Of a stretch of DNA of 64,000 nt, positions 40,138-59,761 are shown piece after piece. The notes beneath the pieces were generated by a model. The model saw nothing but the letters and a program-made list of their open reading frames with translations. It was not told where the DNA came from and ran no database searches. Position 1 is the first letter of the stretch; each line of letters begins with the position of its first letter. Source of the DNA: Bacteroidota bacterium (GTDB taxonomy: Bacteria; Bacteroidota; Bacteroidia; NS11-12g; UBA9320); assembly GCA_018700895.1 (NCBI GenBank), contig JABIUV010000026.1, forward strand, positions 62,001 to 126,000. The letters are read 5' to 3'. Both the position numbers and the translations under genes were made by a program.

Positions 40138-40827
40138 ATGATAGATATCGCAGGTAAAAACGCATTCATCACAGGTTCAAGTAGGGGAGTAGGTCAGCAG
40201 ATAGCACTAGGATTGGCTCAACACGGCTGCAACATTATTCTACACGGTCGTACTGCGGAGAACTGTCAACAGTCTTGCCATTTGCTCGAACGATATGGTG
40301 TAAAGGTATATATCGTGCACGGAGATTTAGGGGAAGAGGTCCACGTACATCACGTCATAACTCAGGTAAAAGATTTGGGAATACCCGTAGACATATTGTA
40401 CAATAATGCTGCTATCATGTCTACGTATGAATCCGATATATGGGAACACTCTTGGGAAGCGTGGATGAAGAGTATGAAAACTAATGTATTTGCGATGTAC
40501 ACCCTTTGTGCTGCCTTTGTACCCCAAATGGATGAACAAGGCTTTGGTAGAGTAGTAAATTTGATATCGGGCATTCATCAAACACCAGAATTAGCTCCTT
40601 ATGGTGCATCTAAATGGGCAGCGATCAAACTCACAGAGGACTTAGCATCCAAATATGCTGATACCAATGTTAGGATAAATTCACTTGATCCGGGATGGTT
40701 ACGCACCGATATGGGAAGCCAAGAAGCTCCAAATCCTGTGGAAGCGGTATTGCCGGGGGCATTACAACCCGCACTATTAGCCAGTGACGGGCCTACAGGT
40801 AAGGCGTTTGAGGCGTTGGGTGCTTAA
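40138..40827 (+). CDS. Short-chain dehydrogenase/reductase
   Basis: 229 residues. Rossmann motif TGSSRGVG at 13-20, NNAA near 88, catalytic Ser in LISG, and YGASK with the Tyr/Lys pair. The HGR after the second strand suggests NADP(H). It follows the NUDIX regulator by 56 bases on the same strand and may be co-regulated. Its stop shares bases with the stop of the convergent GH17 gene (TTAA). The substrate is unknown; an aldose or keto-sugar is possible given the neighbours. Confidence 0.82.
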   Translation: MIDIAGKNAFITGSSRGVGQQIALGLAQHGCNIILHGRTAENCQQSCHLLERYGVKVYIVHGDLGEEVHVHHVITQVKDLGIPVDILYNNAAIMSTYESDIWEHSWEAWMKSMKTNVFAMYTLCAAFVPQMDEQGFGRVVNLISGIHQTPELAPYGASKWAAIKLTEDLASKYADTNVRINSLDPGWLRTDMGSQEAPNPVEAVLPGALQPALLASDGPTGKAFEALGA

Positions 40828-41708
40828 AATTTCGGTTTTTCATTTTTGTCCCATAATCCCCAATAGGCACCTACATCACCTTCATCTCCTGTTTTCCAAG
40901 ATTCATCAAAGGATGAGAAGTAGAACATTTCTATATCCTCACTCCTCGACCATTGTTGCGCATTGGTAAAGTACTTAAGGTAGTTATTCATAGATGCTTC
41001 TGCTCCTTCAAAAGCACCACCTTCACTCGGCCACCCGGTTTCGGTTATGATTACCCGTTTGCCATTTGCAGCACGTAGAGCCTGCTGATACATCTCCTTC
41101 ATATACAGGAATGAGTAGTCTATATGACAACCTTCCCAAAAAGGGTAACAGTTAGCCAAAATCACCTCACACGCATCGGCAAGAGCTGGACGTTCTGTGA
41201 ATTCATAGTACGCGTCTACATAGCCTACGGGCGTACCTGGTATTGCTAGTTTTACTTTGTCAATATATCCTATCAGTTGCTCTTCGGTAAGTTCTTTGCG
41301 ATAAAGAACCTCGTTACCTACTGCGGCTATATCTACATATCCTTGTTTCGCCAAGTTGATAAGCCCCTCAATTTCGCGTGTATTGGTTTCGGTATCGTCG
41401 TTAAGCCATGCACCCACTAGGGTGTTAATGCCATATTCTTTGGCCAAAGGTGGAATAAGCTCATTACCTTCTGTACATGAAAAAGTACGAATCCACCGAG
41501 TATGTGGTTTCAGAATTTCTAATCGTCTACGAATTTGTTTCTCGGTAATTTTGGCACCGGGCCTTTGTCCTTCTTCAAAAAGACTAAAACAAATGCCGTG
41601 CATTCCAGCTTGGAGTAGTTCTTTGGCGAGAATCTTATTGTCTCCAGATGAGTTGTGAAGCCCTTTGGCCGCTACCAACGACATCAATTTTTCTTGACGT
41701 TTAGACAT
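40824..41708 (-). CDS. Cytosolic GH17-family beta-1,3-glucan enzyme
   Basis: 294 residues with the GH17 TIM barrel: acid/base Glu133 in AAVGNEVLY and nucleophile Glu223 in ITETGWPSEGG, the textbook GH17 signature. Unlike the other GH17 of this locus, it has no signal peptide or lipobox (MSKRQEKLMSLVAAKG), so it should work in the cytosol, either cutting beta-1,3-gluco-oligosaccharides or transglycosylating them. It is the last gene of the PUL and shares one base with the transporter gene upstream. A cytosolic endo-enzyme next to a cytosolic phosphorylase (47789) suggests it prepares or remodels the phosphorylase's substrates. Confidence 0.82.
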   Translation of the reverse strand: MSKRQEKLMSLVAAKGLHNSSGDNKILAKELLQAGMHGICFSLFEEGQRPGAKITEKQIRRRLEILKPHTRWIRTFSCTEGNELIPPLAKEYGINTLVGAWLNDDTETNTREIEGLINLAKQGYVDIAAVGNEVLYRKELTEEQLIGYIDKVKLAIPGTPVGYVDAYYEFTERPALADACEVILANCYPFWEGCHIDYSFLYMKEMYQQALRAANGKRVIITETGWPSEGGAFEGAEASMNNYLKYFTNAQQWSRSEDIEMFYFSSFDESWKTGDEGDVGAYWGLWDKNEKPKF

Positions 41709-43129
41709 TATTTTTCTGCTTTTCTTGAAATCTTTAATTGTTCGGAGACTTCCCGTGACCGCTCCTCGGTCAGGTCATAGTCTTTCATTATCCAAATGGC
41801 ACCTATTACCCCTGCAATTGGTAGAGCCGTGTAGAAAATACGCATTCCCGTGACAGCAGATTCTGTGACAGCTTCAGCATCAAATCCTACTAACCAAAGT
41901 ATAGACCCACTTAATAATGCGGCTATTCCAAAACCTAATTTAACCATCCACCAATAAACTGCCCCTAGTACCCCTTCTCGTCGTTTACCTGTGTTTAATT
42001 CATCAAGGTCACAAATGTCCGCGGTCATTGACATCATAATTGTGAACAGACTTCCGATACCGAAAGAATGAAAAGGCAAGGCGTATATAAATAGGTGGGG
42101 TTTGCCAGGTACAAAAAGAAACCAAAATAGTATGTAGCCTATTATGGAGATAGACTGTGCTATGATGAATGCTTTTTTCTTTCCCAATGCTTTAGCCATC
42201 CAGTTTATAATTGGGATCACTAAAAAGCTAGTGAAAATTGCTCCGACGGAACCATGTATAGCAGGCCAGCTCCCTGCACTAGCAGGATCGCTGTTAAACA
42301 TAAAATGTACAATTATTAAAAACGTAAAGGAAGCGATGACATTAAATGAATTGAAAATCAAAAATGTCGCAAATGCTATTTTTTTAAACTGTTTTATTTT
42401 GAATGCATCTAGAGCTGATGTAAATATATTTACGATGCTTTTACGAACATATGTTGGTGTAATAGGTAAGAAATCCGTCCTTCCTAAGGTTGATTTGCTT
42501 TTAATGAAAATTGCAGGAATCATAGCGAATAGTGAACAGGGAATTGCTACCCAAACAGAAAGTTCTCTAACTCCAGCACCCGCTCCGTCCGGAAACCAGT
42601 TAGGATTATATAGAATTACCCAAAACCATGGTGCAATAACCCAAGCAAATTGCCCGATAAACTGAGATACAGCCATGATTTGGGTTCGCTCGTGAAAGTC
42701 GTCGCTTATCTCGTAACCCATCGCCACAAAAGGTACGCTGAATATTGTAAGTCCTAAATAAAACACTAGAGACCAGATCATAAAGTACCAAAAGTTATAA
42801 GTTAATCCATCACCTTTATATAGTTGCCACATAAATACGAACGCAATTCCCATAATTATTGAACCTAGGAACACATAATGTCTTCTTCGTCCCCATTTGG
42901 ATCTTGTGTTGTCAGATATGAAACCCATTATCGGGTCAGTGATGGCATCAAAAATTCTTGGAGCAAATTGTATAACACCCCAAATAAAAGCTGCAAACCC
43001 TAGGTCTTGAACCAAAACAATAATGAAAACGCCTACTGAAGCTGGAAACATCTGATTGGCCAGCATCCCAAACCCAAAGGCTATTTTCTGACCTAAGGGT
43101 ACTTTCTTTGATTCTAAATATTTACTCAT
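41708..43129 (-). CDS. GPH-family (MelB-like) sugar:cation symporter
   Basis: 473 residues, about 12 membrane helices. The N-terminal part has the glycoside-pentoside-hexuronide signature: FGFGMLANQMF, then FDAITDPIMGFISDNTRSKWGRRRHY, with the Asp residues that bind the coupling cation. It would carry gluco-oligosaccharides released in the periplasm across the inner membrane, feeding the two signal-less enzymes of the locus. It lies 10 bases after the GH30 gene and is coupled to the cytosolic GH17 gene. Substrate is inferred from context. Confidence 0.85.
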   Translation of the reverse strand: MSKYLESKKVPLGQKIAFGFGMLANQMFPASVGVFIIVLVQDLGFAAFIWGVIQFAPRIFDAITDPIMGFISDNTRSKWGRRRHYVFLGSIIMGIAFVFMWQLYKGDGLTYNFWYFMIWSLVFYLGLTIFSVPFVAMGYEISDDFHERTQIMAVSQFIGQFAWVIAPWFWVILYNPNWFPDGAGAGVRELSVWVAIPCSLFAMIPAIFIKSKSTLGRTDFLPITPTYVRKSIVNIFTSALDAFKIKQFKKIAFATFLIFNSFNVIASFTFLIIVHFMFNSDPASAGSWPAIHGSVGAIFTSFLVIPIINWMAKALGKKKAFIIAQSISIIGYILFWFLFVPGKPHLFIYALPFHSFGIGSLFTIMMSMTADICDLDELNTGKRREGVLGAVYWWMVKLGFGIAALLSGSILWLVGFDAEAVTESAVTGMRIFYTALPIAGVIGAIWIMKDYDLTEERSREVSEQLKISRKAEK

Positions 43130-43139
43130 TTTTTTACTT

Positions 43140-44633
43140 TTAGTTGTGAAGAACTACTGTTTGAATAGCTTGAGCTTCTATAGATATTTCTGTGTTAAAG
43201 TGTCCTAAGGTAATGGAAAAGTTTTTAGCCGTCATTCCTTCATTGAAAACCACTACGGCAATGTTGCCATCTGGATTTTGAGCAGCGGTAACTTGTAAGT
43301 CAGCATCGCTTTGTTCCAGTCCTATGCGTACTGCTCCGGGGCGTATGAATTTACTGAAATGTGCCATCGTATAATATAACGGTGTGTAGTATACCTCGTC
43401 GGTTTCTACATCTACGATTACAGGAGCAAGGCACCAGTTTTTGAACCAATTGGGTCCTCCTTGCTTGTCCAATACCATATTCCAGTCTACCCAACCGTCT
43501 ACACAGTTATTAAGGCAGCCTATGATATCGCGTGCATAGCGGTTTACGGGAGCATACTTCGGGTGGTGGTATTTTTGTTCGGGAGTAGCCCAATCCCAAC
43601 CCCAGTCAGTCGCCTCTTTACTCCAGTACCATTTGTCATCTTGCCATTTGGGGATTTCAGAATCGCCACATGCTTCGGTTTGTATGAGGTATTTGTCTGG
43701 AGCTGCTTCGTGTGCTTTTTGCAATGATTCTGGAAAATAATCGTACGTGCTGGCATACCAATGTACTGCGGTTCCGTCATAATAGTTAGATGTGGCCTCA
43801 TTGGCATACATTACATCTATCCACTCTGCTAGTTCATCACCGCGATTTTGGTCGTAACCCAGTATTTTTATGTCGTGACCGTCTTCTTCTAGCTTGGGTC
43901 CAAGATGATGTTGTACGAAGTCGGTCATTTCTTCTGCATTGAAATGCATGCTTTCCCAGTTGTTGCTGTTGCCGAGGGGCTCATTTTCTACCGTAAAGCC
44001 CCAAATGTCGATACCTTCATTTTTGTAAGCTGTGCGATATTTAGAGAAAAATAATGCCCACGTGTCATAATACTCAGGGAGTAACTTGCCGCCTACATAG
44101 TTGTTATTGTCTTTCATCCACGGTGGTGCAGTCCATGGAGAGCTTATAATTTTAAATCCATCTGTAGATACTTCCATGGCTTGTTTTATCATTGGGATGA
44201 TATCATCCATATCCTCTTGGATAGTAAAATTTTCTAAGAGCGTATCGCCTGCCACAGGAGCATAGGAATACTGACCCAATGAAAAATCGCACGAGTTCAT
44301 ATGGGTACGGGTGAGTGAATAATTCGCTCCACTCTTTCCAAAGTAAGCTTCTATCACTTCTGCTCGTTTGGCAGGGCTGAGCTTAGAAACCAAGTGTGCC
44401 GATGCCTCGGTAAACGAACCTCCAAATCCGGTGATGGTCTGGTATTTTTTGTCTGGGTAGAGCTGAATATTGCTAGTGCTATCACTTTTTGCAAACTCGG
44501 TTATTACAGATAGTTGAGAGCCGTTAGCTGATGTTTGGTATACGGTTACTTTTTTTTCTGATTCAGAATTACAAGCTACTATCACAATGCTGGCAAAAAG
44601 TATAAATGTTTTTAAGATGTTTTGAATGTGCAT
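43140..44633 (-). CDS. GH30-family glucanase lipoprotein
   Basis: 497 residues. The lipoprotein signal ends at Cys21 (SIVIVAC), followed by NSESE, a moderately acidic stretch that could mark surface export. The GH30 barrel shows TGFGGSFTEASA, SPWTAPPWMKD, acid/base Glu218 in TVENEPLG and nucleophile Glu320 in IQTEACGD, with the C-terminal beta domain. GH30 members in laminarin loci are beta-1,6-glucanases or exo-beta-1,6-glucosidases that remove side chains. A glucosylceramidase-like role is the general alternative but does not fit the locus. Four bases separate it from the upstream GH17 gene. Confidence 0.85.
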   Translation of the reverse strand: MHIQNILKTFILFASIVIVACNSESEKKVTVYQTSANGSQLSVITEFAKSDSTSNIQLYPDKKYQTITGFGGSFTEASAHLVSKLSPAKRAEVIEAYFGKSGANYSLTRTHMNSCDFSLGQYSYAPVAGDTLLENFTIQEDMDDIIPMIKQAMEVSTDGFKIISSPWTAPPWMKDNNNYVGGKLLPEYYDTWALFFSKYRTAYKNEGIDIWGFTVENEPLGNSNNWESMHFNAEEMTDFVQHHLGPKLEEDGHDIKILGYDQNRGDELAEWIDVMYANEATSNYYDGTAVHWYASTYDYFPESLQKAHEAAPDKYLIQTEACGDSEIPKWQDDKWYWSKEATDWGWDWATPEQKYHHPKYAPVNRYARDIIGCLNNCVDGWVDWNMVLDKQGGPNWFKNWCLAPVIVDVETDEVYYTPLYYTMAHFSKFIRPGAVRIGLEQSDADLQVTAAQNPDGNIAVVVFNEGMTAKNFSITLGHFNTEISIEAQAIQTVVLHN

Positions 44634-44637
44634 AGGT

Positions 44638-45948
44638 CTACTTTAGTTTTTTAAGAGGTGGGACTTTAACGTAATTCATCAAGGCTGATTTATCGCCACT
44701 AAAACTTTTGGTAATGGCGTTTCCATTGCGGGAAAGTCCCTCAAAAACATCTTGGTCTACCAAGTCCCAAACGGCGTATTTAGCCTCCCCGTCTATATTG
44801 AATATCCCAAAGTGATTTTCTGAGCCGCCAGGGTTTGCGGCATCCTTCCATTTTTCATTAAATGCTTCAAAGTAAAAACACGCAATTCCCTCCTCGTTGG
44901 TCCACTCTCGCATGTGATGATAGTACAAGCCTTCTTTGTATTCGTCACACGCCTTAGAACCCTCATCGCCATAGTGGCCTCTAGAGTAGCTTGCCCATCC
45001 CGTTTCACCTATGTGTATGCTCTTGGTGCTGTCTATCCCTTGTATATATTTGGCTGATGATGCATATTGATCCATAGCATATTGTTTGGCTCGTAGCATA
45101 GCGGCCTTTATTTTCTCTTCCTTACCTAAGTCCTGCTCACTCGGGTCTGAACCCCAAAAAACTGGATGATAATGCGTGTCGTGCATAGGGTAGGTGTGCA
45201 GCGATACGAAGTCTACCGCTTTTATCAGATCTTCCAGGTCTTGACAATGATATAATGAATCGCCACCGCCCCACGAGGCAAAATTGTCTGAACTTGTTAT
45301 CCAAAGGTTTTGGTTCAGCGTTCCTTCTTTTTTTAGATTTTGAAGATGATTTACCCATCGGAGAATGACCTTAGGTTGCACATAGTAACTAGCGGCCCAT
45401 TTTACCATAGCTTCATTGCCTACGGCTATGATTTTAACAATATCTGGGTATTGTGTTGCTAGGTCTACAGCACGTTGTATCTCCGCACTATTGGCGGCTT
45501 CATTTTCAGCATCATGATTTGGTTCTTTATTCGTCCAGGCATTTTTGCAGTCTATCCAAGCACCGAGCATAACATACATTTCGAATGATGGGTCTTCTTC
45601 TCTTAGCTCGTGTATAGCTTGCAGCAAGTTATCTGCTTGCTTGTAATGCGTATTATATGTTCGGAGGATGCCAATACCCATCGCCGATAGTATTTTCATA
45701 TCCTCTTTAAGCTCCGGTATGGTAGGTTGAGTGTCGCGGGTAATCTCGCGATATCCGCCATAGCTTATGGCTTGATACTTGGGGTTTCCTAAAATCTCGG
45801 CAGCGGTAATGGATTGATTCATCGGTTGGTCAGTTTTTTGTTGATTGGTACTGCAGCCCGTGAGTATAAATATGCACAAGGCTATAAAAAATCGCTTAAT
45901 AGTGCGATATTCTGTTGAAGCAAAAAGGGGTAATGTATTTCGATTCAT
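44638..45948 (-). CDS. GH17-family beta-1,3-glucanase lipoprotein
   Basis: 436 residues. The signal ends at Cys32 (FILTGC) and is followed by STNQQKTD with no early acids, so it probably stays on the periplasmic side. Acid/base Glu179 in IAVGNEAMV and nucleophile Glu315 in HIGETGWAS identify GH17. It is about 140 residues longer than the cytosolic GH17 of this locus, with loops around 140-150 and 335-350 that could shape the substrate cleft. It would split imported laminarin oligosaccharides. It lies two bases from the GH3 gene. Confidence 0.85.
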   Translation of the reverse strand: MNRNTLPLFASTEYRTIKRFFIALCIFILTGCSTNQQKTDQPMNQSITAAEILGNPKYQAISYGGYREITRDTQPTIPELKEDMKILSAMGIGILRTYNTHYKQADNLLQAIHELREEDPSFEMYVMLGAWIDCKNAWTNKEPNHDAENEAANSAEIQRAVDLATQYPDIVKIIAVGNEAMVKWAASYYVQPKVILRWVNHLQNLKKEGTLNQNLWITSSDNFASWGGGDSLYHCQDLEDLIKAVDFVSLHTYPMHDTHYHPVFWGSDPSEQDLGKEEKIKAAMLRAKQYAMDQYASSAKYIQGIDSTKSIHIGETGWASYSRGHYGDEGSKACDEYKEGLYYHHMREWTNEEGIACFYFEAFNEKWKDAANPGGSENHFGIFNIDGEAKYAVWDLVDQDVFEGLSRNGNAITKSFSGDKSALMNYVKVPPLKKLK

Positions 45949-45950
45949 GA

Positions 45951-47786
45951 TTATTTGTCTTGAGGCCTGTAGGTTAATCCGTAGCCAAATGGGAATAGGG
46001 GAGTTATACTATTATCCCAATAGTTAGGACCAAATTTATTGTTGTAATCCGTAATGGATTTGGGCCAAGAGTGTGGTAATTTTCCTTTGAAATCATACTC
46101 GCCAAAGAGTACCTGGGCAATACCATCACCCTCAGAACCCGGCAACCATGCTGCGACAAAGGCTTGCGATTGAGCCAGTTGCTTATTTACTACTAAGGGT
46201 CTGCCTGAAACTAATACTGTCACCACCTTCAGGCCTTGCGAGGCATAATGTGAGATGTAATGTTGCTGCGAGTCGGAAAGAGTAAGCTGGTGCTTACCTT
46301 TTCCATCACCTATATCACCAAAAAATTCGGCATAAGGGGTTTCGCCAACCACTATGATCACTGCGTCGGCATCTGGATGAGAACCTTGGCCTAATGAGTC
46401 ATATATCACTGTGCCTTGAGCAACTTGTTTTATTCCGTCTAAAATGGTTGTAGCTCCATTGTAACTTGTTTTAGAGCCTTGCCAATTGATGGTCCACCCG
46501 CCGGACTGATAACCGCTATTATTAGCGTGAGCACCTACCACTACTATTTTGCTTGCCGCTTTGTTGAGTGGTAAGATGTTATCTTCGTTTTTGAGCAGTA
46601 CAAGTGATTCACGCACAGCCTGACGAGCCACTGCTCTATGTTCAGGTATGCCTATTGCCGTAGTTAATGACTTAGCAGGGAATGGATTTTTAAATAAACC
46701 CAGGCGATACTTTTGGCGTAGAATTCGGGTTACCGCGTCATCTATTCTGCTCATTGGTACGCGATTTTCTTCTACAGCTTTTTTGAGGCCATTTTGAAAC
46801 AAACCTAAATCCCCATCTACGGCCATTACCATATCAATGCCTGCATTTATTATAGCCGCTTGGCCAAACCGTGAGTAGCCTTTCCAGTCAGAAATTACGA
46901 TTCCATCAAAACCTAGCTTGTTTTTAAGTGTATCGGTGATGAGTGCCTTATGGGCGTGCATAGGCAGACCGTCAATGGTATTAAACGAAGTCATTACGGC
47001 CCCTGCTCCTTGCTGTACGGCCATTTTATACGGATCTATCAATCGCTTCATCATTTCATGATTTGCTATCGAAGATGAACCCCCTTCTATGCCGTAATCT
47101 GTAGCACCATCGCCAATATAATGTTTGGCAGTGGCCAATACGGTGGTACTATCATTTAAGTGCCGTTGTAATCCATTGATGTACGCTTTAGTCAGGTCGG
47201 TGGTGAGTTGTGCATCCTCAGCGTATGCTTCGTAAAAACGACCCCATTTTTCATTGAGGGGTATTGCGACACACGGGGCAAATACCCAATTGAATCCACA
47301 CGCCTGTGATTCTAATGCGGTGATACGTGCTGCTTCCTCTGCCAATTCTAAATTGGCTGCAGCTCCCATACCAATGTTATGAGGAAATATAGTTGCTCCG
47401 TTATAGGTGTTTTGTCCGTGTACCGCATCCACACCGAAAAGCAATGGAATCCCCAACCGTGTAGACAACGCCTCTTTTTGTAGTTCGGTAAACTTTGCTT
47501 GCCATTCGGCTGCATTTTTTCCTGGTAGTGGTCCTTGGGTATGTATTGCTGAGCCAAGGTTTTTAGCCGCAACATCACCCTTTCCTATATCGTAAAAGTG
47601 CCTCACCTGTGTCATCTGACCTATTTTTTCTTCTAAGGTCATTTGAGCAAGTAGGGTCGCTACCTTATTATTTATTCGCTGTGATTCGAGCTTGCCGAGA
47701 GTGTATTTGTTTTGTTTACACCCCATAATGCTAAAGCAGCCGATGAGCAGCATTGCAATAAGAGGTATACGTAAGCTTTTATTCAC
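45951..47786 (-). CDS. GH3-family beta-glucosidase lipoprotein
   Basis: 611 residues. The lipoprotein signal ends at Cys17 or Cys23 (SIMGC), with KQNK after it and no acidic export signal. The N-terminal barrel contains FGVDAVHG, KHYIGDG and the nucleophile Asp300 in VISDWKG; the alpha/beta sandwich follows (LVLLKNEDNILPL). The fibronectin-III-like C-terminal domain seen in longer GH3 enzymes is absent. It would release glucose from the non-reducing ends of beta-gluco-oligosaccharides in the periplasm. That would compete with phosphorolysis in the cytosol, so its specificity matters. Confidence 0.88.
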   Translation of the reverse strand: MNKSLRIPLIAMLLIGCFSIMGCKQNKYTLGKLESQRINNKVATLLAQMTLEEKIGQMTQVRHFYDIGKGDVAAKNLGSAIHTQGPLPGKNAAEWQAKFTELQKEALSTRLGIPLLFGVDAVHGQNTYNGATIFPHNIGMGAAANLELAEEAARITALESQACGFNWVFAPCVAIPLNEKWGRFYEAYAEDAQLTTDLTKAYINGLQRHLNDSTTVLATAKHYIGDGATDYGIEGGSSSIANHEMMKRLIDPYKMAVQQGAGAVMTSFNTIDGLPMHAHKALITDTLKNKLGFDGIVISDWKGYSRFGQAAIINAGIDMVMAVDGDLGLFQNGLKKAVEENRVPMSRIDDAVTRILRQKYRLGLFKNPFPAKSLTTAIGIPEHRAVARQAVRESLVLLKNEDNILPLNKAASKIVVVGAHANNSGYQSGGWTINWQGSKTSYNGATTILDGIKQVAQGTVIYDSLGQGSHPDADAVIIVVGETPYAEFFGDIGDGKGKHQLTLSDSQQHYISHYASQGLKVVTVLVSGRPLVVNKQLAQSQAFVAAWLPGSEGDGIAQVLFGEYDFKGKLPHSWPKSITDYNNKFGPNYWDNSITPLFPFGYGLTYRPQDK

Positions 47787-50700: not shown

Positions 50701-51241
50701 GGTTTTGTATTCCGTCTAATACAGAAACATTTATTTCAGCGTCCGAATGATTGGTTAATTGTGATTTTCGTACAAAACCAAACTCATTACTTGAGTTCCA
50801 TTGATATTTAAATGTAAGACCAAGGTCGTGGTTTATTTCTTCAAATATTATTTTATTACCTAGTGCATTCTTATAAAGATTGCGAGTGGTGTTATATAAG
50901 TCTGAGTTACGCTCCGAGAATGGTTCCCATATATGCAACTCGTTGTTTAATGTTACTTGAAAAATAGACTTACTACCTGTTGTTTCTACAGATTCGGTAA
51001 TCTTATCAGATGTGTAGTAAGGAAAAAGACTGTAGTTCGAATTTTTTCGGCCAGCACTTAGAGCACCGTTGCTTGATATGAACATCCAGTGATTAGAGTC
51101 ACTTACAATACTCATAAAAAACGGACGCATCTCGTTATAATTCGAAATCTTGTAGTAGTTCTCGTTCTCTATTTTGAGACGGTTTATATCTACTGTTTCA
51201 GCACTTTTAGCTTCTCCTTTGTGTAATGTCTGTCTTGCCAT
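47789..51241 (-). CDS. GH149-type beta-1,3-glucan phosphorylase
   Basis: 1150 residues without signal peptide or lipobox, so cytosolic. Size and layout (beta-sandwich about 1-310, linker, alpha/alpha barrel about 360-870, long C-terminal part) match GH149, the family of Euglena EgP1 and bacterial relatives, which split beta-1,3-glucan with phosphate into alpha-glucose-1-phosphate. The stretch GGIWMNTQRPEWNDANNAL at about 639-657 resembles the catalytic WND motif of related GH94 enzymes; Asp652 is the likely general acid. GH161 is another beta-1,3-glucan phosphorylase family but is shorter. The flanking GH17, GH3, GH16 and transporter support the substrate. Confidence is moderate because the family was assigned from memory. 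Confidence 0.75.
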   Translation of the reverse strand: MARQTLHKGEAKSAETVDINRLKIENENYYKISNYNEMRPFFMSIVSDSNHWMFISSNGALSAGRKNSNYSLFPYYTSDKITESVETTGSKSIFQVTLNNELHIWEPFSERNSDLYNTTRNLYKNALGNKIIFEEINHDLGLTFKYQWNSSNEFGFVRKSQLTNHSDAEINVSVLDGIQNLMPEGVGPDLQNSTSNLVDAYKRNELNESSGLGIYALSAIIVDKAEPSEALKANVAWSLGLPKATHLVSSMQVGDFRKGLQVKPENDVKAEKGAYFINAIYKLAPNAEETWTIVADVNKSQSAIVALIEQIKTNKNLAEEVHQNIQLGSQKLIELNASADGIQLSADVFRDSRHFSNSLFNIMRGGVFDANYQIEKWDFKNYIQNANTRVYTLLEKTINALPETFTSFDLEEVASKSSDKDFKRLCKEYMPLKFSRRHGDPSRPWNKFSINTRSEVDGSKILDYEGNWRDIFQNWEALAHSYPAFTESMIHKFLNATTFEGYNPYRVTKGGFDWETIEPDNPWSYIGYWGDHQIIYLLKLLELNEKYFPGQLATNFEKEAYVYADVPYKIKSYEEIVKNPKDTIEFDEELDLDIRARRKELGSDAALLIDENDAIYTVNYVEKILATVLAKLSNFIPEGGIWMNTQRPEWNDANNALVGNGVSMVTLYYLRRFLIFFDKQIENATEDRVEISNELIIFYKKILETFEDYQHVLKDKISDKHRKEILDHLGQAGSDYREHIYKQAFWGQKRTISYKRLKRFIKLSLKFIEHTIKANKREDKLYHAYNLMTVENDKEVSIAYLDEMLEGQVAVLSSGHLKPKKALRLLDSMKKSALFREDQYSYILYPNKNLPKFLEKNNVPAQAIKKSKLLTKMEKENDTSIIEKDTKGNFHFNGNFKNANDLASALHNLDVSLDSDEEQHILATFEKVFNHKAFTGRSGTFFGYEGLGSIYWHMVSKLQLAVQEICLIAVEKGESKEIVGRLLEHYYEINEGVGVHKSPQLYGAFPTDPYSHTPAGRGAQQPGMTGQVKEDVLSRFGELGVFVKDGCLYFDPCLLRKNEFTVQSRNFHYVDVHMNHHDFSPELGSLCFTYCQVPIIYRLAKENSMVVTNKDKTSTTIEGLNLDAQTSSEIFKRSGEVVNITVYLDETSLK

Positions 51242-51274: not shown

Positions 51275-52543
51275 TTATAAAGCTTTATTTATGGCTTCGT
51301 CTATGTTTATTTTAGCAAATAAGGAGTCTAATAGTGGGAGCGTTTGATTGGGGGATATGGGATTAATGTTGTGAATTTGACTCAATACATAGTATGCTGC
51401 TCGCGGGTATAGTGGAGAGGTATTGTTGGGGAGTGTTTTGCCCTTGGCACATATCCCAAACCACTCTTCGTTCATATTCTTTTGACCTTTTTTATAATCA
51501 TAAGCATAACCGCCATTACTCCAAGATGCTGTGGAGTCGTGTACGTCTAAGTTATAAGTTTGTCCGGTTTTCCACCAGCCGTCACTAAATTGAAAGGTGA
51601 ATCCACCGATGCAATTCTCTGCTTTACCTAATCCTGCGGCATTTTGGTATAGCTCTTTCCAGTTGCTTAGTAGGTATTGTGCTTGGGAACGTTGGTCTTC
51701 TTTTTGGCTGATTGCATCATAAGCATCTGCCCCAAATTCGGTAAACATTACGGGCTTACCCCATTGTTTTTTTATGTCCGTAAATGCCTTATCAAAAGAA
51801 GATCCGCGGTAGATATTAATGCCGAGGATATCTACGTGAGTGCATTCTTTGGCAATAATATCGAGATATTGGATGTCGCCATTGCATATAGCTACTTGCT
51901 TGTCAGGGTCTATTTGCTTCAGTACTTGAGCAGCTTCATTAAAAACTTGGTATAAGGCAAGTATTTGTTTTTCGGCATTTGCCTTTTGTAGAGGGATGTC
52001 CTCTGTTTCGGCTCCTTCCCAGAAGAGACCGTAGTTATTCTCGTTGCCCAAGAGGTACATCAATAGTCCTCTGGTATTTTTATAGTTGTGAGCAACCGCT
52101 TTAATTTCTGTTAATATGGTTGCTTTAGTAAGCGAATCGGCATAATTAGTCTTAGCAACCCATTGGTCATTGATACTCAGGCCATATCTACCCATAGAAT
52201 GATTAATAACCGTATGAATACCATAGGTGTCATATACGTAGGTAATCCATTGGGGCGGCATAGAGACATAAGTTCTTAGGGTATTTACTCCCATGTCTTT
52301 CAATAGGGTCATGTCCGTCGCCAAGCCTGCGTGTATAACGCTGTCTGGCTGCTCCCAGAAAGAATAGGTATAGTTGGTTCCAATAGGAAAGTAATCCCAA
52401 TTCATACCATTAATGAAAATAGGTTTCCCGTTTACCTCTAGGGTATGACCCGTCTCTGCCTCAACCGACGATACACTGGATTTCTTGGCACAAGAAGCCA
52501 AAAAAAACGAAATGATTATATATATGATCGGGTTGGGTCTCAT
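51275..52543 (-). CDS. Unclassified clan GH-A glycosidase lipoprotein
   Basis: 422 residues. The lipoprotein signal ends at Cys18 (FFLASC), followed by AKKSSV with no acids, so it likely faces the periplasm. The rest is a single TIM barrel: IFINGMNWDYFP, LLKDMGVNTLRTYV, acid/base Glu168 in LLGNENNYG and nucleophile Glu269 in MFTEFGADA. The layout recalls the barrel of GH2 and the GH72 glucanosyltransferases, but the sandwich domains of GH2 are missing, and I cannot place it in a family. In this locus it should act on beta-glucan as a hydrolase or transglycosylase. It could alternatively be GH158 or a GH5 subfamily. Confidence 0.65.
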   Translation of the reverse strand: MRPNPIIYIIISFFLASCAKKSSVSSVEAETGHTLEVNGKPIFINGMNWDYFPIGTNYTYSFWEQPDSVIHAGLATDMTLLKDMGVNTLRTYVSMPPQWITYVYDTYGIHTVINHSMGRYGLSINDQWVAKTNYADSLTKATILTEIKAVAHNYKNTRGLLMYLLGNENNYGLFWEGAETEDIPLQKANAEKQILALYQVFNEAAQVLKQIDPDKQVAICNGDIQYLDIIAKECTHVDILGINIYRGSSFDKAFTDIKKQWGKPVMFTEFGADAYDAISQKEDQRSQAQYLLSNWKELYQNAAGLGKAENCIGGFTFQFSDGWWKTGQTYNLDVHDSTASWSNGGYAYDYKKGQKNMNEEWFGICAKGKTLPNNTSPLYPRAAYYVLSQIHNINPISPNQTLPLLDSLFAKINIDEAINKAL

Positions 52544-52606: not shown

Positions 52607-53728
52607 TTATTGAAATACACGGATGTAGTCTACCCACATTTTTTGTGGAAAGTCTGTAGTAGAGTCTGGCGACCCAGGCCATCGGCCACCTACGGCCACA
52701 TTAAATATGAAAAAGAATTCCTGATGAAATTCACTCATATTGGGGTTGGTAGTAGTGATTACCATATATTGTTTATCATCACGTAGGATGCGTATTTTCT
52801 CATCGTCCCATATTAGGGAGAAAACATGAAATTCTTCTGAGAATTTGGTAGAGATAGAATTACTCAAACCGTACGAAGCATATGAACCTGCATTGTCCCA
52901 ATGCACAGTTCCGTGTACAGTCTTATCCGATTTACCTTCGGCCGTTCCGCCTACAAGTTCCATAATATCTATTTCACCGCAGTTAGGCCAGCTAACTGTC
53001 GAAATATCATTGCCCAGCATCCAAAGTGCAGGCCAAATACCTTGCCCTTCTGGCAAAGCGGCACGTATATCTACACGGCAGTATTTAAAAGATTTTTTAT
53101 TTTTTGTCGTCAGTCTTGACGAGGTGTATTGTCTGTTGCCAAAAAATTGTTTTTTAGCTTCGATAGACAAATAGCCATCGGCTACTATAGTGTTTTCTTT
53201 GAGGTAGTACTGTTGTTCGTTGTTTCCCCAGCCGTTGCTGCCTGTACCTAATTCGTAGTTCCATACAGATTCGTTCAATGCTTCTCCATCAAACTCGTCA
53301 TTCCAAACGAGGGTCATCCCGTCATAAGTCATAGGAGATGAGTAGCCATTAAGCGGCCTACCGTCCTCGGTCTTAGTCTCTTCTATGTATACCCTAAAAG
53401 TATCTGTTCGTTCTATGTAATTAGTTGCAAGAGCGTGTGCTTTTACGTTGATTTCATACAATCCTGATTTGGTATACGTATGTGTGGCGGTGCCATACGG
53501 AGTTTCTGTACTTTCTGTGTTGTCGCCATCCAAAAAAGTGATGGTAAAAAAGTTGACTGAATTTGCTTTAGCAGTGACGTTAACAATACTTGGGTCATTA
53601 GCTGAATACTCTATTTGTACCGTCAAACTATCAGGTAATCCTACTTGAGGTTTTTCAGGTTCATCATCGCAACCCGTAATTCCAAGAATAAAGATAAGTA
53701 ATAGTAATGATATATTTTTAAGTCTCAT
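52607..53728 (-). CDS. GH16-family laminarinase lipoprotein with PKD-like domain
   Basis: 373 residues from the ATG at 53728; the track starts 15 codons earlier and spoils the lipoprotein signal. Cys20 (LGITGC) is followed by DDE, which fits the Bacteroidota surface-export signal, so the enzyme should sit on the cell surface. A PKD-like domain (about 30-118) is followed by the GH16 domain (about 135-373) with the catalytic GEIDIMELVG (Glu252, Asp254, Glu257). The short loop type is that of laminarinases (GH16_3). It would make the first cuts in extracellular beta-1,3-glucan. Confidence 0.88.
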   Translation of the reverse strand: MRLKNISLLLLIFILGITGCDDEPEKPQVGLPDSLTVQIEYSANDPSIVNVTAKANSVNFFTITFLDGDNTESTETPYGTATHTYTKSGLYEINVKAHALATNYIERTDTFRVYIEETKTEDGRPLNGYSSPMTYDGMTLVWNDEFDGEALNESVWNYELGTGSNGWGNNEQQYYLKENTIVADGYLSIEAKKQFFGNRQYTSSRLTTKNKKSFKYCRVDIRAALPEGQGIWPALWMLGNDISTVSWPNCGEIDIMELVGGTAEGKSDKTVHGTVHWDNAGSYASYGLSNSISTKFSEEFHVFSLIWDDEKIRILRDDKQYMVITTTNPNMSEFHQEFFFIFNVAVGGRWPGSPDSTTDFPQKMWVDYIRVFQ

Positions 53729-53751
53729 GATATGTATTGTTAAGCATAGAA

Positions 53752-53781
53752 AAAGGAGTGCGAATTGTATCACACTCCTTT
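53752..53781 (-). terminator. Attenuator-like hairpin between binding-protein and enzyme genes
   Basis: A perfect 9-bp stem (AAAGGAGTG/CACTCCTTT) with a 12-base loop, followed on the minus strand by further T. It lies 20 bases after the lipoprotein gene's stop and 24 bases before the GH16 start. It would leave susC-susD-binding protein expressed above the enzymes. Confidence 0.65.
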
Positions 53782-53801: not shown

Positions 53802-55154
53802 TTAATTTTGTTTGATGTCATCTAAGTAGAAAGTGCCAGCATTAGCTACATCCCATCCAGGGAATAATACTACTCTAGCAAATTTGCCAGCCGCAGCATC
53901 GCTGAAATCAATACTAACTTCTACCCATGTATTAGCCGTAGGTACGTTAACATCTTTCTCTACAAACTCACCTGTATCATCAATGTTTTCTAATTTCATA
54001 CGCATAAGTCCGGCAGCTGGAGCCCATACTTTCACCGTAAGATTTGGTGATCCATTTGTGAAATCCAAAGGATCTTTGAGGTCAACGAATAATCCTGCCC
54101 AAGTTTGGTCTCCGTGTACAGTCTCTAAAACATTAGCACTGGTGTTGATTCCAGACATATCTGGATTAGCAACAATGCCGTATGTACTTCCACCGAAAGT
54201 AGTCCACTCCATAGCGTCTCCTTCAAAATCAAACGGTAAAGCAAGTCCACTGGTGTTTCCACCTCCGCCGCCACCGCCGCCTCCGCCGTTATCTACGGGG
54301 AAGTCTTCGGGAACTAGTCTGATGTACCATCTTAATGTAGCATCTACAGCATCTGTATAGCTTATAGTTAATTCATTCTCATTGATAGTTTCAACGCGAT
54401 ATTCTCTTACGCCTGAGAAGAAACCAATAAACGCTGAACCAGAGATACTAATCATGGTGTCTTCGCCTTCTGTCAACGTCCACGTTTCATCTAGTTGGTT
54501 CTCAAATGGAGCTGAAGCGTCATCTGAATTGTCATAAGCACCTGGGAAGTTTGCCATTTGATCGTTGTTAAGGAATACTAATCCGTTAGTTATATGGTCA
54601 AATTTAAATCCGCTTAGCTTGAATGTATATCTATCACTGTACAAACCAGTGTTAGCTTTATTCAATGGATCTGCAGACCACCATTCTGGCCAAGTACCTG
54701 CCTCAGGGCCTACGCCCATGTGTGCAGCTCTAGTTGAGTCTATAACCCAAGTTTTGCTTCCGCTACCCGCTATGCCACCCGTAAGCAGAGTGTAAAGTGG
54801 GTTGTCTAATAAGGTGATATCGTCTTCAGCAATTACGATGTCTTGTGAGCTACTTGCACTTCCACCAGAGTTGAAAACTGTAAGTGTAACTGTGTAAGTA
54901 CCTTTGTTTGGGTAGCTAGACTGTGCAGTCATACCTTCTCCCAATAGAGCATTTCCGAAATCCCATTTATAGGTGAATCCAGAGTTTGTTGCAGTGAAGT
55001 CGATAGTGTTTGCGTTTTCAGCAGTTGCAGCATAAGTAAATGCAGCATCTGCAGATGTTGGTGCTTCACCTAGTGATGGAGCTTCATCATCTTTACAGCT
55101 CGATATTCCTAGAATAAGAGCCAGTGATAAAAATAAAAATGTTGTTTTTTTCAT
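53802..55154 (-). CDS. Surface glycan-binding lipoprotein with PKD domain
   Basis: 450 residues. Cys20 is followed by KDDE, very close to the published surface-export signal of Capnocytophaga lipoproteins (QKDDE), so it should face outward. A PKD domain (about 35-110) precedes a middle beta-rich part (about 115-285), a run of ten glycines (54258-54287) and a C-terminal module (about 305-450) shared with the T9SS protein at 38383. There is no glycosidase signature. Placed after susD, it is the SusE/F-position binding protein of the PUL, expected to hold beta-glucan at the surface. Confidence 0.8.
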   Translation of the reverse strand: MKKTTFLFLSLALILGISSCKDDEAPSLGEAPTSADAAFTYAATAENANTIDFTATNSGFTYKWDFGNALLGEGMTAQSSYPNKGTYTVTLTVFNSGGSASSSQDIVIAEDDITLLDNPLYTLLTGGIAGSGSKTWVIDSTRAAHMGVGPEAGTWPEWWSADPLNKANTGLYSDRYTFKLSGFKFDHITNGLVFLNNDQMANFPGAYDNSDDASAPFENQLDETWTLTEGEDTMISISGSAFIGFFSGVREYRVETINENELTISYTDAVDATLRWYIRLVPEDFPVDNGGGGGGGGGGNTSGLALPFDFEGDAMEWTTFGGSTYGIVANPDMSGINTSANVLETVHGDQTWAGLFVDLKDPLDFTNGSPNLTVKVWAPAAGLMRMKLENIDDTGEFVEKDVNVPTANTWVEVSIDFSDAAAGKFARVVLFPGWDVANAGTFYLDDIKQN

Positions 55155-55175: not shown

Positions 55176-56657
55176 TTAATAATTAGCGTTTTGTGACCAC
55201 GACCCACCTGTTAAGTCTATCTCAACTTGTGGTATCGGGAATAATTCGTGTTTGCCCGTTTGGAAACCATCTATCTCCGTAGCAGCTTGTCCTGTACGCA
55301 CTAGGTCAAAGAAACGATGCCCTTCGCACGCTAGTTCGTGCAATCGCTCATCCCATATGTCTTGGGTAAGTTGTGATCCTCCACTTGTGATTTCTGGCAT
55401 ATTTACTCTGTCTCTTACACGCTTTAAGTAAGCGAGTGCTTTTGCGTCGTTAGGCGTAGATGCACGATTATGTGCTTCTGCTGCCATCAAAAGTACATCA
55501 GCAAAACGGATAACTTTGTAATTTACAGGGCTAGTTAAGTCATTATCTGGTAAACCTATTTCGCCTTGACGTTTGATATACTTGTTATTGTAGTAACCAG
55601 AGTGACCACCTCCACCTTTAGCATAAGTGATTTCGCTAGAGTTAGGCTGTGCGGCAATGAACGCGTCTATATCTAATACACTGGCGTCTCTTCTTATATC
55701 GCCAGCGGCATAGGAGTTGTAAAGCTTTTCAGTGGGCATATTGTAACTATTGCCGTCACCGTATACTGGACCGTTATATTGTCTTATCCCATGAAAACCG
55801 GGAGCAGCATTTCCTTCTAAGCATATTAGACATCCATAACTACCACCTTCAGCTCCGCTATATTCTACGTCGAATATGGTTTCTGCGTGTCCTTCATTTA
55901 TGACAGAGAATAAATCTTCGTAATTAGGAATAAGGTCATATGGTCCTTCGTCTATCACGCGGTCTAGGATTACTGCTGCTTCATCAAACTTGTTTTGGTA
56001 CAAAAGTGCTTTGCCGTGCAGTGATAGTGCAACTCCTTTTGTCAATCTGCCTTTTACAGGATTGGTCCAATCTAATACTGCGGCTGCGGCAGTTAGGTCG
56101 CTTTCTATCTGAGCGTATACTTCTGCTTGTGGCGTGCGGCTTATTTCAGTAACCTCATCGGCACCCAATCGTTGGTCTATTACCAAAGGTACATCACCAA
56201 AGTATTTTACCAACTCAAAGTAGTAATATGCTCTCAGCAATTGTGCTTGTGCTATAATTTGGTCTTTACCTTCAAAATCAAGCTTGTTTTTGTTTTCCAT
56301 AATGTAGTTTACACGAGTAACGCCGGCATAATTCCATCTGAATACGTTTCGCAATTCATTGTTTACCGCATCGTGGGTCATGTTATCTATCTCGTGTAAT
56401 CCTTCGGTATCCGAAACACTCTCGCCACCTGCTATGGAATTATCGCTTGCTATTTCACCGATCCATACTGTGATAAATGAAGATTGTAGTAAGTCATACG
56501 CTCCAGTGAGTGCACGCTCATAGTCTACAGGTGTTTCAAAATAGTTTTCAGCATCCTGAGTATATAGCGGATTGATATCTAAGAACTTCTCACAACTTGT
56601 AAAAAGTACGGTTGCCAAACAAAAGATGGCGAATATTCTAATTGTTATCTTTTTCAT
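55176..56657 (-). CDS. susD: SusD-family nutrient-binding lipoprotein
   Basis: 493 residues, with signal peptide and lipobox ending at SCEKFLDINP, the normal SusD N-terminus. TPR-like helices (LLRAYYYFELVKYFGDVPLV) and the C-terminal RVRDRVNMPEI and LACEGHRFFDLVRTG motifs are diagnostic. SusD forms the lid of the SusC transporter and binds the glycan. It lies 8 bases after susC. Confidence 0.95.
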   Translation of the reverse strand: MKKITIRIFAIFCLATVLFTSCEKFLDINPLYTQDAENYFETPVDYERALTGAYDLLQSSFITVWIGEIASDNSIAGGESVSDTEGLHEIDNMTHDAVNNELRNVFRWNYAGVTRVNYIMENKNKLDFEGKDQIIAQAQLLRAYYYFELVKYFGDVPLVIDQRLGADEVTEISRTPQAEVYAQIESDLTAAAAVLDWTNPVKGRLTKGVALSLHGKALLYQNKFDEAAVILDRVIDEGPYDLIPNYEDLFSVINEGHAETIFDVEYSGAEGGSYGCLICLEGNAAPGFHGIRQYNGPVYGDGNSYNMPTEKLYNSYAAGDIRRDASVLDIDAFIAAQPNSSEITYAKGGGGHSGYYNNKYIKRQGEIGLPDNDLTSPVNYKVIRFADVLLMAAEAHNRASTPNDAKALAYLKRVRDRVNMPEITSGGSQLTQDIWDERLHELACEGHRFFDLVRTGQAATEIDGFQTGKHELFPIPQVEIDLTGGSWSQNANY

Positions 56658-56665
56658 TTTATGTA

Positions 56666-59600
56666 TTAAAATTTGATAGAAAGTCCAGTCATTATAGTTC
56701 TCGCTTGTGGGTAGAAACCGTAGTCTATACCTGCAGATAAAGCTCCGCCAAATGAACCAAGATCTGGATCATATCCTTGATAATTGGTGATAGTTAATAA
56801 ATTATTTGCTGCGACGTATATACGCGTGCTTGATATTTTCAATCTGCTCAACCTGTTCTTAGGTAAGGTGTATCCTAGCTGTATGTTTCTTAATCGCAAG
56901 AAAGAACCATCTTCTACATAAAAGTCTGAGAAGGTAGTATTACGGTTGAGGTCAGTAGTCAGTCTTGGTGTTTCGTTGGTAGGGTTACTGCCATTCCATC
57001 TGTCGATATTGTAGCCTAATTGGTTAGCATATGGTTGCTGACGCTCGTAGTTACGTATGATTTCTTGGCCGATAGCACTGTATAGATTCGCTGAGAAATC
57101 AAATCCTTTGTAGTCCATATTTAGATTATAACCAAAGGTGAATGTTGGTATCGCGTTACCTAATTCTTTTTGGTCTGAATCATCGCTAAAACTGATTACG
57201 CCGTCACCATTTTGGTCTACAAAGCGTAAATCACCAGGCTTAGCACCATCTTGAACTACTGGTGCATTATCTATCTCTTCTTGACTTTGGAATATTCCGT
57301 CAGTCTCATATCCTATGAAGTAACCTATGGCGTACCCTTCTTGGAAACGAGTTGCCACGTTGCCACCCACACCAAAGTTAGCACCCGGTATGAAATCTAC
57401 TCCATCTGGTACATCAGTTACCTTGTTGCAAATAAAGGTAGTATTCAAGCTTGTGCTCCAATTGAAGTCTTTACGTGTAGGAGCGACATATCCAAGCTCT
57501 ATTTCCACACCTTTATTGCTTACGTCACCTGCATTAATAATAGGTGCGAAACTTCCTGCTCCTGCTGTTCCTAATACACCGGAAACTTCAGGTTGGAAAA
57601 GTAGGTCTCTTGTGTTTTTGATAAAGTAGTTTACCGTTACGTCTACACCTCGCTTTAGTTTAATATCTGTTCCTATATTAAATTGACGTGTAGTTTCCCA
57701 TTTCAAATCGGGATTACCCGCTCTACCTATGGCTGCACCTTTGGTGATTATATCGTCAAAAACATAATCTCCTTCACCGGTAAGCAATCCGCGGTATGCA
57801 AAGTTGGGTATCTGGTCATTACCGCTAATACCATAGCTTACTCTCATTTTCACATAAGAAGCTCTATCCCAGTTGAAAAAATCCTCTTCTGACAGCATCC
57901 AGCTACCAGATACGGTAGGGAATAAACCATAGCGGCTATTCGGTCCAAATTTAGATGAACCATCTCTACGTAGTATCACAGAGCCATTATACTTGGTTGA
58001 GTAACGGTATTGCGTTCTTATGAAGGTAGATAATAGTCGCTCTTGGAACTGAAATGAGTTGGTATTATTCAAAAAACCACCTGGTGCTAAATTGGCCGAA
58101 ATATCGGCATAATCTATACTGTTATTAGGGATGTTGAATGCTGTTCCACCCAAGCCTTGTCCGTTTCTACTGAAGATAGAAATACCAGCCGTAGTTTTTA
58201 AGTTGTGCACTTCACCAAAAGCATATTCGTGATTAACAAAACTCTCAAAGTTGATATCGCTATAAGTGGCTCTTGCCTCGTATACACTAGCTCCTCTATC
58301 TATGGTGGTCCCGGGAGCAATCTCTGCTTGTGTAGGGTCTAAGTCTGCGTTAAGTGCAGTGTTTTGTGCTTTACCTGGACCGTACCATACGAGTGGAGAG
58401 AATACTTTTTGGTCTACCAGTGCAAAGTTGTAATTAAATCTGTTCGTAAATGTAAGGTTATCAAGGATGTCAAAAGCTATTTCTTCTTTACCTACAAACT
58501 TGTCTACGAAGCTGGTATTGTAGATGTTTTGCATTTGTGCTATTGGGTTGATGATATCACTTACCTCTTCCAGATAAGAGTATTGTCCGCTAGCTTCTTG
58601 TACGGGGTCGGTAGGGAATGCATTGATAGTGTTATACAATACTGACCCTATGCCATTCTCAGGCAAGACATCACGCTCTTCGTTGGTATATAAGAATACA
58701 CTACTAAGTCGCATACGTTTGCTCATCTCCGTGTTCAGATTCACACGAGCGTTCATTCTTGTAAAGTTGGCTTTGTCTCCACCTACTATACCATCTTGGC
58801 TGAAATAACTGCCCCCAATAGAGTAGGTAGTTTTGTCGCTACCGCCACTTATAGTGACATTATAACTCTGCATATTTGCATCCTGAAAAACAGCATCTTG
58901 CCAATCCGTGCCTTCTCCCAAAGCTGTGTTGGCAAAAGGAATGGCGTCATTACCATTGGCAAACATTTCATTCTTTAGAACGGCATACTCCGAGGCATTG
59001 AGAAGGTCTAATCGCTTAGCGGTAGATTGCACACCATAATAGGTGCTCAATTCTATTTTTGGTTTTGTATTGGCTCTACCTTGCTTAGTAGTGATAAGGA
59101 TCACTCCATTGGCTGCTCTTACACCGTATATACCAGCGGTAGCATCTTTCAGCACGTTCACCGTTTCTATGTCATTTGGATTCAAGGCATTCAGACCTTC
59201 TGAGTCATATACAACCCCGTCTACAAGTATAAGTGGGTCATTGTCTCCAAAGGTTGATAAACCACGAATACGAATACTTGATCCTCCCCCTGGCGAACCA
59301 GAGTTGGTATTAATCGTTACACCGGCTACCTTGCCTTGTAGAGCTTGGTCTACACGCGGAATGTTTAATTTTTCGAGGTCTTTACCTGCCACATTACTAC
59401 TAGCTCCGGTAAATTCTTTTTTGGTAGATGTACCATAACCTACTACCATAACCTCACTGATACCTACTGAGTTTTCACTAAGTTTGATCTTTACGGTTGT
59501 TTTGCCTAATACAGCGAGTTCGCGTTTCTTGTAACCCGAGTATGTTACTACGAGTACCGTAGTTTTGGGGTTTTCTACAGGGAGAGAAAACGCTCCATTT

Positions 59601-59761
59601 TCGTCGGTTATTCTACCATTAGATGCACCCTTTTCTACGACAGCTGCTCCAATGATGGGTTGGTTGAGACTGTCTGTTACAGTTCCGTTGATGGTGGTCT
59701 GTGCTACTGCAAGAGTGCAAATACACGCTACAATGACCGTTGAGAGAATATGTTTAATCAT
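56666..59761 (-). CDS. susC: SusC-family TonB-dependent glycan transporter
   Basis: 1031 residues: signal peptide (to about 20, AVAQ), carboxypeptidase-regulatory-like domain (about 22-100), plug with VMVVGYGTSTKKEFTG and VDQALQGKVAGV, the SusC hallmark, then the barrel ending in TIMTGLSIKF. It is the first gene of the PUL and would move beta-gluco-oligosaccharides through the outer membrane with energy from TonB. The 363-base gap before it holds a perfect 9-bp inverted repeat but no clean -7 box. Confidence 0.95.
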   Translation of the reverse strand: MIKHILSTVIVACICTLAVAQTTINGTVTDSLNQPIIGAAVVEKGASNGRITDENGAFSLPVENPKTTVLVVTYSGYKKRELAVLGKTTVKIKLSENSVGISEVMVVGYGTSTKKEFTGASSNVAGKDLEKLNIPRVDQALQGKVAGVTINTNSGSPGGGSSIRIRGLSTFGDNDPLILVDGVVYDSEGLNALNPNDIETVNVLKDATAGIYGVRAANGVILITTKQGRANTKPKIELSTYYGVQSTAKRLDLLNASEYAVLKNEMFANGNDAIPFANTALGEGTDWQDAVFQDANMQSYNVTISGGSDKTTYSIGGSYFSQDGIVGGDKANFTRMNARVNLNTEMSKRMRLSSVFLYTNEERDVLPENGIGSVLYNTINAFPTDPVQEASGQYSYLEEVSDIINPIAQMQNIYNTSFVDKFVGKEEIAFDILDNLTFTNRFNYNFALVDQKVFSPLVWYGPGKAQNTALNADLDPTQAEIAPGTTIDRGASVYEARATYSDINFESFVNHEYAFGEVHNLKTTAGISIFSRNGQGLGGTAFNIPNNSIDYADISANLAPGGFLNNTNSFQFQERLLSTFIRTQYRYSTKYNGSVILRRDGSSKFGPNSRYGLFPTVSGSWMLSEEDFFNWDRASYVKMRVSYGISGNDQIPNFAYRGLLTGEGDYVFDDIITKGAAIGRAGNPDLKWETTRQFNIGTDIKLKRGVDVTVNYFIKNTRDLLFQPEVSGVLGTAGAGSFAPIINAGDVSNKGVEIELGYVAPTRKDFNWSTSLNTTFICNKVTDVPDGVDFIPGANFGVGGNVATRFQEGYAIGYFIGYETDGIFQSQEEIDNAPVVQDGAKPGDLRFVDQNGDGVISFSDDSDQKELGNAIPTFTFGYNLNMDYKGFDFSANLYSAIGQEIIRNYERQQPYANQLGYNIDRWNGSNPTNETPRLTTDLNRNTTFSDFYVEDGSFLRLRNIQLGYTLPKNRLSRLKISSTRIYVAANNLLTITNYQGYDPDLGSFGGALSAGIDYGFYPQARTIMTGLSIKF

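Follow-up and report, generated by a model that had tools for sequence, protein, structure and literature searches.

Predicted hydrolysis outside the cytosol and phosphorolysis inside it in a variant-1 type laminarin PUL of a Bacteroidota genome

Among the carbon stores of marine algae, laminarin is a major one, and its phosphorolytic uptake would affect bacterial energy yield. The question raised by the locus described here is whether it joins hydrolysis of a beta-glucan outside the cell to phosphorolysis inside, and whether this would set it apart from known laminarin loci. It lies in a 64,000-nucleotide stretch of a Bacteroidota genome (assembly GCA_018700895.1, contig JABIUV010000026.1, positions 62,001 to 126,000), referred to below as the window. 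An initial annotation had proposed outside hydrolysis, import by a GPH transporter and phosphorolysis in the cytosol. This predicted pathway is well supported by families, active-site residues, localisation signals and synteny, from which we infer the order of the steps, the substrate, the direction of GH149 and the ATP saving. Our main reading, with a probability of roughly 85%, is that of a variant-1 laminarin PUL with surface and periplasmic hydrolysis and cytosolic GH149 phosphorolysis. The same annotation had also held that known laminarin loci usually rely on hydrolases; this does not survive the literature, in which GH149 is standard in the widespread variant-1 PUL (PMC5827456, PMC6246565, PMC10108472, PMC13188888).

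Gene content and published relatives

Families were assigned by Pfam, NCBIfam and PDB sequence searches (Table 1). The locus consists of eleven consecutive co-directional ORFs on the minus strand (40824-59761), all at the coordinates of the ORF list, and ORFs, Pfam, NCBIfam and PDB matches agree with the families first named for them, except for the GH-A enzyme. There the earlier label holds at the level of the clan, with a weak match to the GH2 TIM barrel and no curated family. Counted with the longest starts, the gaps from susC to GH17B are 8, 21, 28, 63, 33, 2, 2, 4, 10 and -1 bases; the close spacing reported earlier stands, at -1 to 63 bases, and its former maximum of 73 depends on the chosen start. 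Past the gap upstream of susC, the same strand encodes a FabD-like acyltransferase, adenylosuccinate synthetase, a Fur-family regulator and a RelA/SpoT-type protein. A Bacteroidetes promoter pattern had no match upstream of susC, and its count across the window was near chance. Downstream, an SDR gene runs convergently and shares its last four bases with GH17B.

Table 1. Features of the locus and its flanks, with positions in the window
Feature	Coordinates	Strand	Evidence
SusC-type TonB-dependent outer-membrane transporter	56666..59761	-	TIGR04056 810 bits, over cut-off; Plug and CarbopepD_reg_2 domains
SusD-type glycan-binding lipoprotein	55176..56657	-	PF07980 and PF14322 over cut-off; nearest solved chain 6gcz, E 8e-53; lipobox
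PKD-domain surface glycan-binding lipoprotein (SGBP)	53802..55154	-	PF00801; nearest solved chain 7kv5, E 6e-41; 8qx6, E 7e-10; lipobox then KDDE
GH16 endo-beta-1,3-glucanase, lipoprotein	52607..53773	-	PF00722 71 bits; laminarinase structures E <=1e-59; lipobox
Clan GH-A enzyme outside curated families, lipoprotein	51275..52543	-	weak PF02836; E168 and E269 invariant in 30 homologues; fold nearest GH158/GH157
GH149 beta-1,3-glucan phosphorylase, without signal peptide	47789..51241	-	NF058639 1774 bits; 6hq6 full length; WND/RD/His kept
GH3 beta-glucan exohydrolase/beta-glucosidase, lipoprotein	45951..47786	-	PF00933, PF01915; ExoI-type structures E 1e-129; lipobox
GH17A endo-laminarinase, lipoprotein	44638..45948	-	6fcg (FbGH17A, Formosa laminarin PUL) E 2e-180; lipobox
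GH30 enzyme, probable beta-1,6-glucosidase (debranching), lipoprotein	43140..44633	-	PF02055 250 bits; position same as FbGH30; lipobox
GPH/MFS_2 inner-membrane sugar transporter, separate from GH17	41708..43129	-	PF13347 188 bits, over cut-off; TIGR00792 cut-off not reached
GH17B, cytosolic, predicted beta-1,3-glucanosyltransglycosylase	40824..41708	-	4wtp E 7e-35; E133, E223, Y136, W191, E192 present; no signal peptide
Intergenic region upstream of susC, likely promoter site	59762..60124	-	longest gap in neighbourhood, about 363 bases
Nudix/NrtR-AraR-type regulator, candidate for the locus	39290..40081	+	PF21906 and PF19368 over cut-off; homologues beside GH149 loci

The gene set is not chance, because it recurs in most of 80 related loci. 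Among these GH149 loci, fetched from named records, GH17A is found in nearly all, and GH30, the transporter, GH17B, GH16 and the GH-A gene are found in most, where the contig is long enough; two Polaribacter loci (L045 and L057) carry all eleven genes in identical order. Of the 38 genomes in the window's own family, 19 have GH149 and 18 have a GH17B match, largely the same ones.

We do not regard a phosphorylase in a laminarin PUL as unusual, since it has been published since 2018 and its neighbours are common to nearly all of the 80 GH149 loci. The founding paper of GH149 in that year placed most Bacteroidetes GH149 genes in PULs or CAZyme clusters with GH3 and/or GH30_1, GH17 and/or GH16 (PMC5827456). 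The laminarin PULs of Formosa contain GH149; assays there covered a GH30 and two GH17 enzymes, and the GH17A and GH30, orthologous to those of the window, were assayed on laminarin and are induced by it (PMC6246565). Those of Muricauda hold GH16, GH149, GH17A, GH30_1, a transporter and GH17B (PMC13188888). In a North Sea bloom, variant-1 laminarin PULs were expressed by 11 of 15 active Bacteroidota genomes, with expression following laminarin, and Polaribacter P_MB288 provides an example of the order GH149-GH0-GH17-GH16_3-GH30_1 (PMC10108472). A related description, variant B, does not name GH149 in its text (PMC6298971).

The window holds together what defines variant 1, namely susCD with GH149, GH0, GH17, GH16 and GH30 (GH16 and GH30 at family level), so that the GH149, unassigned GH0, GH17, GH16, GH30_1 and susCD of P_MB288 have their counterparts here (PMC10108472). 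Judged by its genes, the locus is a well-preserved laminarin PUL of the variant-1 type, and outside hydrolysis with inside phosphorolysis is already published for many marine bacteria. It is a clean further example, from another Bacteroidetes genome, and it shows where knowledge of such systems has gaps, namely the unassigned GH-A family, how fused and separate GH17 enzymes share the work, the regulator and the glucose kinase.

Several differences from the closest systems were found. First, the window's transporter and GH17 are separate genes, as opposed to the fusion of most published variant-1 PULs, and its GH-A protein is a short form. Second, in the laminarin PUL of Formosa sp. Hel1_33_131, to whose FbGH17A the window's GH17A scores 603 bits, the GH30, transporter and GH149 are placed similarly, but that locus has the transporter-GH17 fusion FbGH17B, and the window has none (PMC6246565). 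Third, the Muricauda lutaonensis PUL shares GH16, GH149, GH17A, GH30, a separate transporter and a single-domain, transglycosylase-type GH17B, whereas GH3 is additional in the window and the adjoining regulator is of the Nudix/NrtR type, not LuxR (PMC13188888).

The GH149 phosphorylase and the proposed pathway

On its sequence, the 1150-residue protein can be placed firmly in GH149. It has no Pfam match; against NF058639, the NCBIfam equivalog '1,3-beta-D-glucan phosphorylase, GH149 family', it scores 1773.9 bits (cut-off 1150) over positions 3-1133 of 1134, and the PDB chain 6hq6 (Pro_7066) aligns end to end, over residues 15-1149, with 1677 bits. The initial annotation's GH149-type phosphorylase, which was to be given up if the protein fell outside GH149/GH161, is borne out by these two matches. 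GH161 was rejected, as its best chain, 9qqk, reaches 57 bits versus 1677 for 6hq6. The active-site motifs are identical to those named for Pro_7066 (PMC6771811), with W650, N651 and D652 of the WND catalytic loop, R469 and D470 of the RD motif and the phosphate-recognition histidine H931 all kept, and no notable sequence difference from that protein was seen. Pro_7066 is a proven beta-1,3-glucan phosphorylase acting on laminaribiose and longer chains (PMC5827456, PMC6484121). A motif scan found no hydrophobic stretch in the first 47 residues of the window's GH149, and for this reason the enzyme is likely cytosolic.

Phosphorolysis is reversible, and Pro_7066 also elongates glucose and oligosaccharides from glucose-1-phosphate (PMC6484121). 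It is conceivable, then, that GH149 and GH17B run in the synthetic direction, building or remodelling an intracellular beta-glucan store, the more so as a storage role has been proposed for MlGH17B (PMC13188888). We hold this to be highly improbable, since the genes sit within a SusCD degradation operon. Moreover, high cellular phosphate generally favours degradation by phosphorylases.

Localisation of the other proteins was taken from a crude lipobox motif scan, not from SignalP. The lipobox is found on seven of them (SusD, the PKD protein, GH16, the GH-A enzyme, GH3, GH17A and GH30) and on neither GH149 nor GH17B; the scan also marks SusC, where an ordinary signal peptide is the better reading. 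Directly after the cysteine, the PKD protein has KDDE and GH16 has DDE. Acidic residues at this place are a feature of Bacteroidetes lipoprotein export signals, which suggests a location at the cell surface for these two proteins. In the remaining lipoprotein enzymes such residues are absent, and these are therefore more likely periplasmic.

In the pathway that we propose, GH16, SusD and the PKD lipoprotein would capture laminarin at the cell surface and cleave it, and SusC would bring the fragments in. In the periplasm, GH30 would take off the beta-1,6 branches, the chains would be shortened by GH17A, the GH-A enzyme and GH3, and the short oligosaccharides would then enter the cytosol via the GPH transporter. 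There, GH149 would release glucose-1-phosphate and glucose by stepwise phosphorolysis, GH17B would cut and transfer longer chains and so free laminaribiose usable by GH149, and a phosphoglucomutase-type mutase would yield glucose-6-phosphate with no ATP spent.

Against this pathway, the periplasmic GH3 could release glucose from a large share of the oligosaccharides ahead of import. Taken to its end, phosphorolysis would be marginal: GH3, GH30, GH17A and the GH-A enzyme would carry nearly everything to glucose in the periplasm, the GPH transporter would import that glucose, and GH149 would salvage leaked oligosaccharides. Four lipoprotein hydrolases, GH3 among them, are indeed encoded, and FbGH30, FbGH17A and FbGH17B together take laminarin to glucose (PMC6246565). 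However, GH149 stays in the operon across Bacteroidetes families, while GH3 is absent from many such loci, and a cytosolic GH17B would be useless if glucose alone entered. We consider a marginal role unlikely, and prefer outside hydrolysis with phosphorolysis of imported oligosaccharides in the cytosol.

Among the locus-encoded enzymes, these oligosaccharides would meet only GH17B and GH149 there. A cytosolic transglycosylase beside a phosphorylase is likewise found in MalQ/MalP, the maltodextrin pathway of enteric bacteria, which the window's locus resembles in its working without being a member of it. The linkages and families differ, GH17B-type enzymes form beta-1,6 links, and GH149 takes disaccharides already. 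For the beta-1,6 linkages so made, no cytosolic enzyme was seen; GH30, which would open them, is predicted to be a lipoprotein and would act elsewhere.

Fused and separate GH17 enzymes, and the probable fate of the products

The window's transporter and GH17B genes overlap by one base as separate ORFs. In 26 loci (L094, L095, L096, L097, L099, L100, L102 and 19 others), by contrast, the GPH transporter has a C-terminal GH17 fusion of about 780 residues; Formosa has it, and so do several genomes from the family to which the window belongs. The fusion is not new, as it has already been described for Formosa and many bloom genomes (PMC6246565, PMC10108472). In a tree of 97 GH17 domains, standalone and fused copies split across one well-supported branch (100/98). 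Tyr136, the residue required for transglycosylation in MlGH17B (PMC11005184), is still present in 69 of 72 standalone copies versus 2 of 25 fused ones, counts that represent related sequences and not independent events; Leu, Met or His is common at this site in the fused copies. Because the fused GH17 form a separate clade, mostly without the transglycosylase tyrosine, divided roles of the two forms are suggested.

The window's GH17B has Tyr136, Trp191, Glu192, Glu133 and Glu223 all at the numbers of MlGH17B, for which the roles of these residues were described (PMC11005184). The presence of Y136, W191 and E192 leads us to predict a transglycosylase, not an enzyme that only hydrolyses. MlGH17B itself forms beta-1,6 linkages, and chains below DP5 are poor substrates for it (PMC13188888).

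As for the glucose-1-phosphate and glucose that would result, the genome has two PGM/PMM superfamily mutases, one of which scores as a phosphoglucosamine mutase above the TIGR03990 cut-off and the other below all cut-offs. The role of phosphoglucomutase could fall to either, more likely to the second. ROK and Glk glucokinases were found in none of the 38 family genomes, in which controls matched. The best candidate for phosphorylating free glucose would be a BadF/NagK-like kinase, encoded in this genome's alpha-glucan locus (L109:5256-6116) with a Pfam score below the curated cut-off; its homologues lie near the GH149 gene in L005, L096, L107 and L108. The alpha-glucan locus (L109:811-12836) also encodes a GH65-family enzyme, a HAD protein like beta-phosphoglucomutase, an MFS transporter, alpha-amylases and an NrtR-type regulator. 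From these genes it looks phosphorolytic too, and the HAD protein could be its beta-phosphoglucomutase. The genome has no GH1, and its only other GH3 is a fusion with a beta-lactamase-type domain; both points favour cytosolic phosphorolysis.

The clan GH-A enzyme and the candidate regulator

The GH-A enzyme (422 residues) scores 30 bits against PF02836, the GH2 TIM barrel, and matches no curated NCBIfam family. Assignment to GH2, the annotation used in Muricauda, was rejected: GH2 architecture consists of sugar-binding, immunoglobulin-like and TIM-barrel domains, and here the TIM barrel stands by itself, with the N-terminal and Ig-like domains absent. E168 (in LGNEN) and E269 (in TEFG), invariant in the 30 aligned homologues, would be the expected acid/base and nucleophile of the clan. 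An AlphaFold model (pLDDT 82, pTM 0.84) has the GH158/GH157 laminarinases BuGH158, GH158(Pro) and LaGH157 as its nearest folds, with TM-scores of about 0.53-0.60 and 17-18% identity. The best fold match is to GH158 (TM-score 0.53-0.56, 17% identity), to which the sequence match is confined to 157 residues (phmmer E 3e-5). The enzyme is probably the published 'GH0' of variant-1 PULs, because position and composition agree.

This enzyme also bears on the substrate. It falls in no assigned family, and mixed-linkage glucan is within the reach of GH16 and GH158-like enzymes, which would fit another beta-glucan, for example mixed-linkage glucan or pustulan, as the target in place of laminarin. Such a target seems very unlikely to us: where characterised, GH17A, GH17B and GH149 are specific for beta-1,3 linkages (PMC5827456, PMC11005184), and laminarin induces orthologous loci (PMC6246565, PMC6298971).

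In most relatives (L096:763-3969 and about 40 other loci) the GH-A protein has about 1050 residues, of which some 600 make up a C-terminal part with many long beta strands; in the window, as in several genus mates, the protein is short, and the window has the enzyme part only. TonB-receptor-type barrels are among the fold matches of the long form, and its C-terminal part may resemble an outer-membrane beta-barrel, in a model of low confidence (pLDDT 68.5, pTM 0.48).

The Nudix/NrtR-AraR-type protein encoded next to the locus has homologues beside the GH149 loci of genus mates and, in varied arrangements, in L005, L096, L103, L107 and L108; in L096, regulator, PUL and kinase follow one another in one direction throughout. 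From Bacteroides, sugar regulators of the NrtR family have been described (AraR, PMC4666351). We regard the protein as a candidate regulator of the locus, while noting that adjacency alone is no proof.

A wider reading would join these parts. The cytosol, with a transglycosylase-type GH17 and GH149 as its only locus-encoded glucan enzymes, would be a beta-1,3 counterpart of MalQ/MalP; a Nudix/NrtR-type sugar sensor would be in control; a BadF/NagK-like kinase would replace the missing ROK/Glk; and the GH-A enzyme, joined to an outer-membrane barrel in relatives, would found a new glycoside hydrolase family. As a whole this is tentative, and we would sooner doubt it than assume it.

Three observations on the fetched loci may be added. 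In L036 (13475-16624), a single ORF of 1049 residues combines a GH3-like and a GH17A-like enzyme. In L025, L028, L030, L039, L054 and L080, ORFs of ~550 residues combine an SGBP-like N-terminal part with GH16. Finally, the GH17B of L006, a record titled Rhodobacteraceae, is nearly identical to that of the Flavobacteriaceae record L004, so that a mislabelled or contaminated bin seems a likelier cause than gene transfer.
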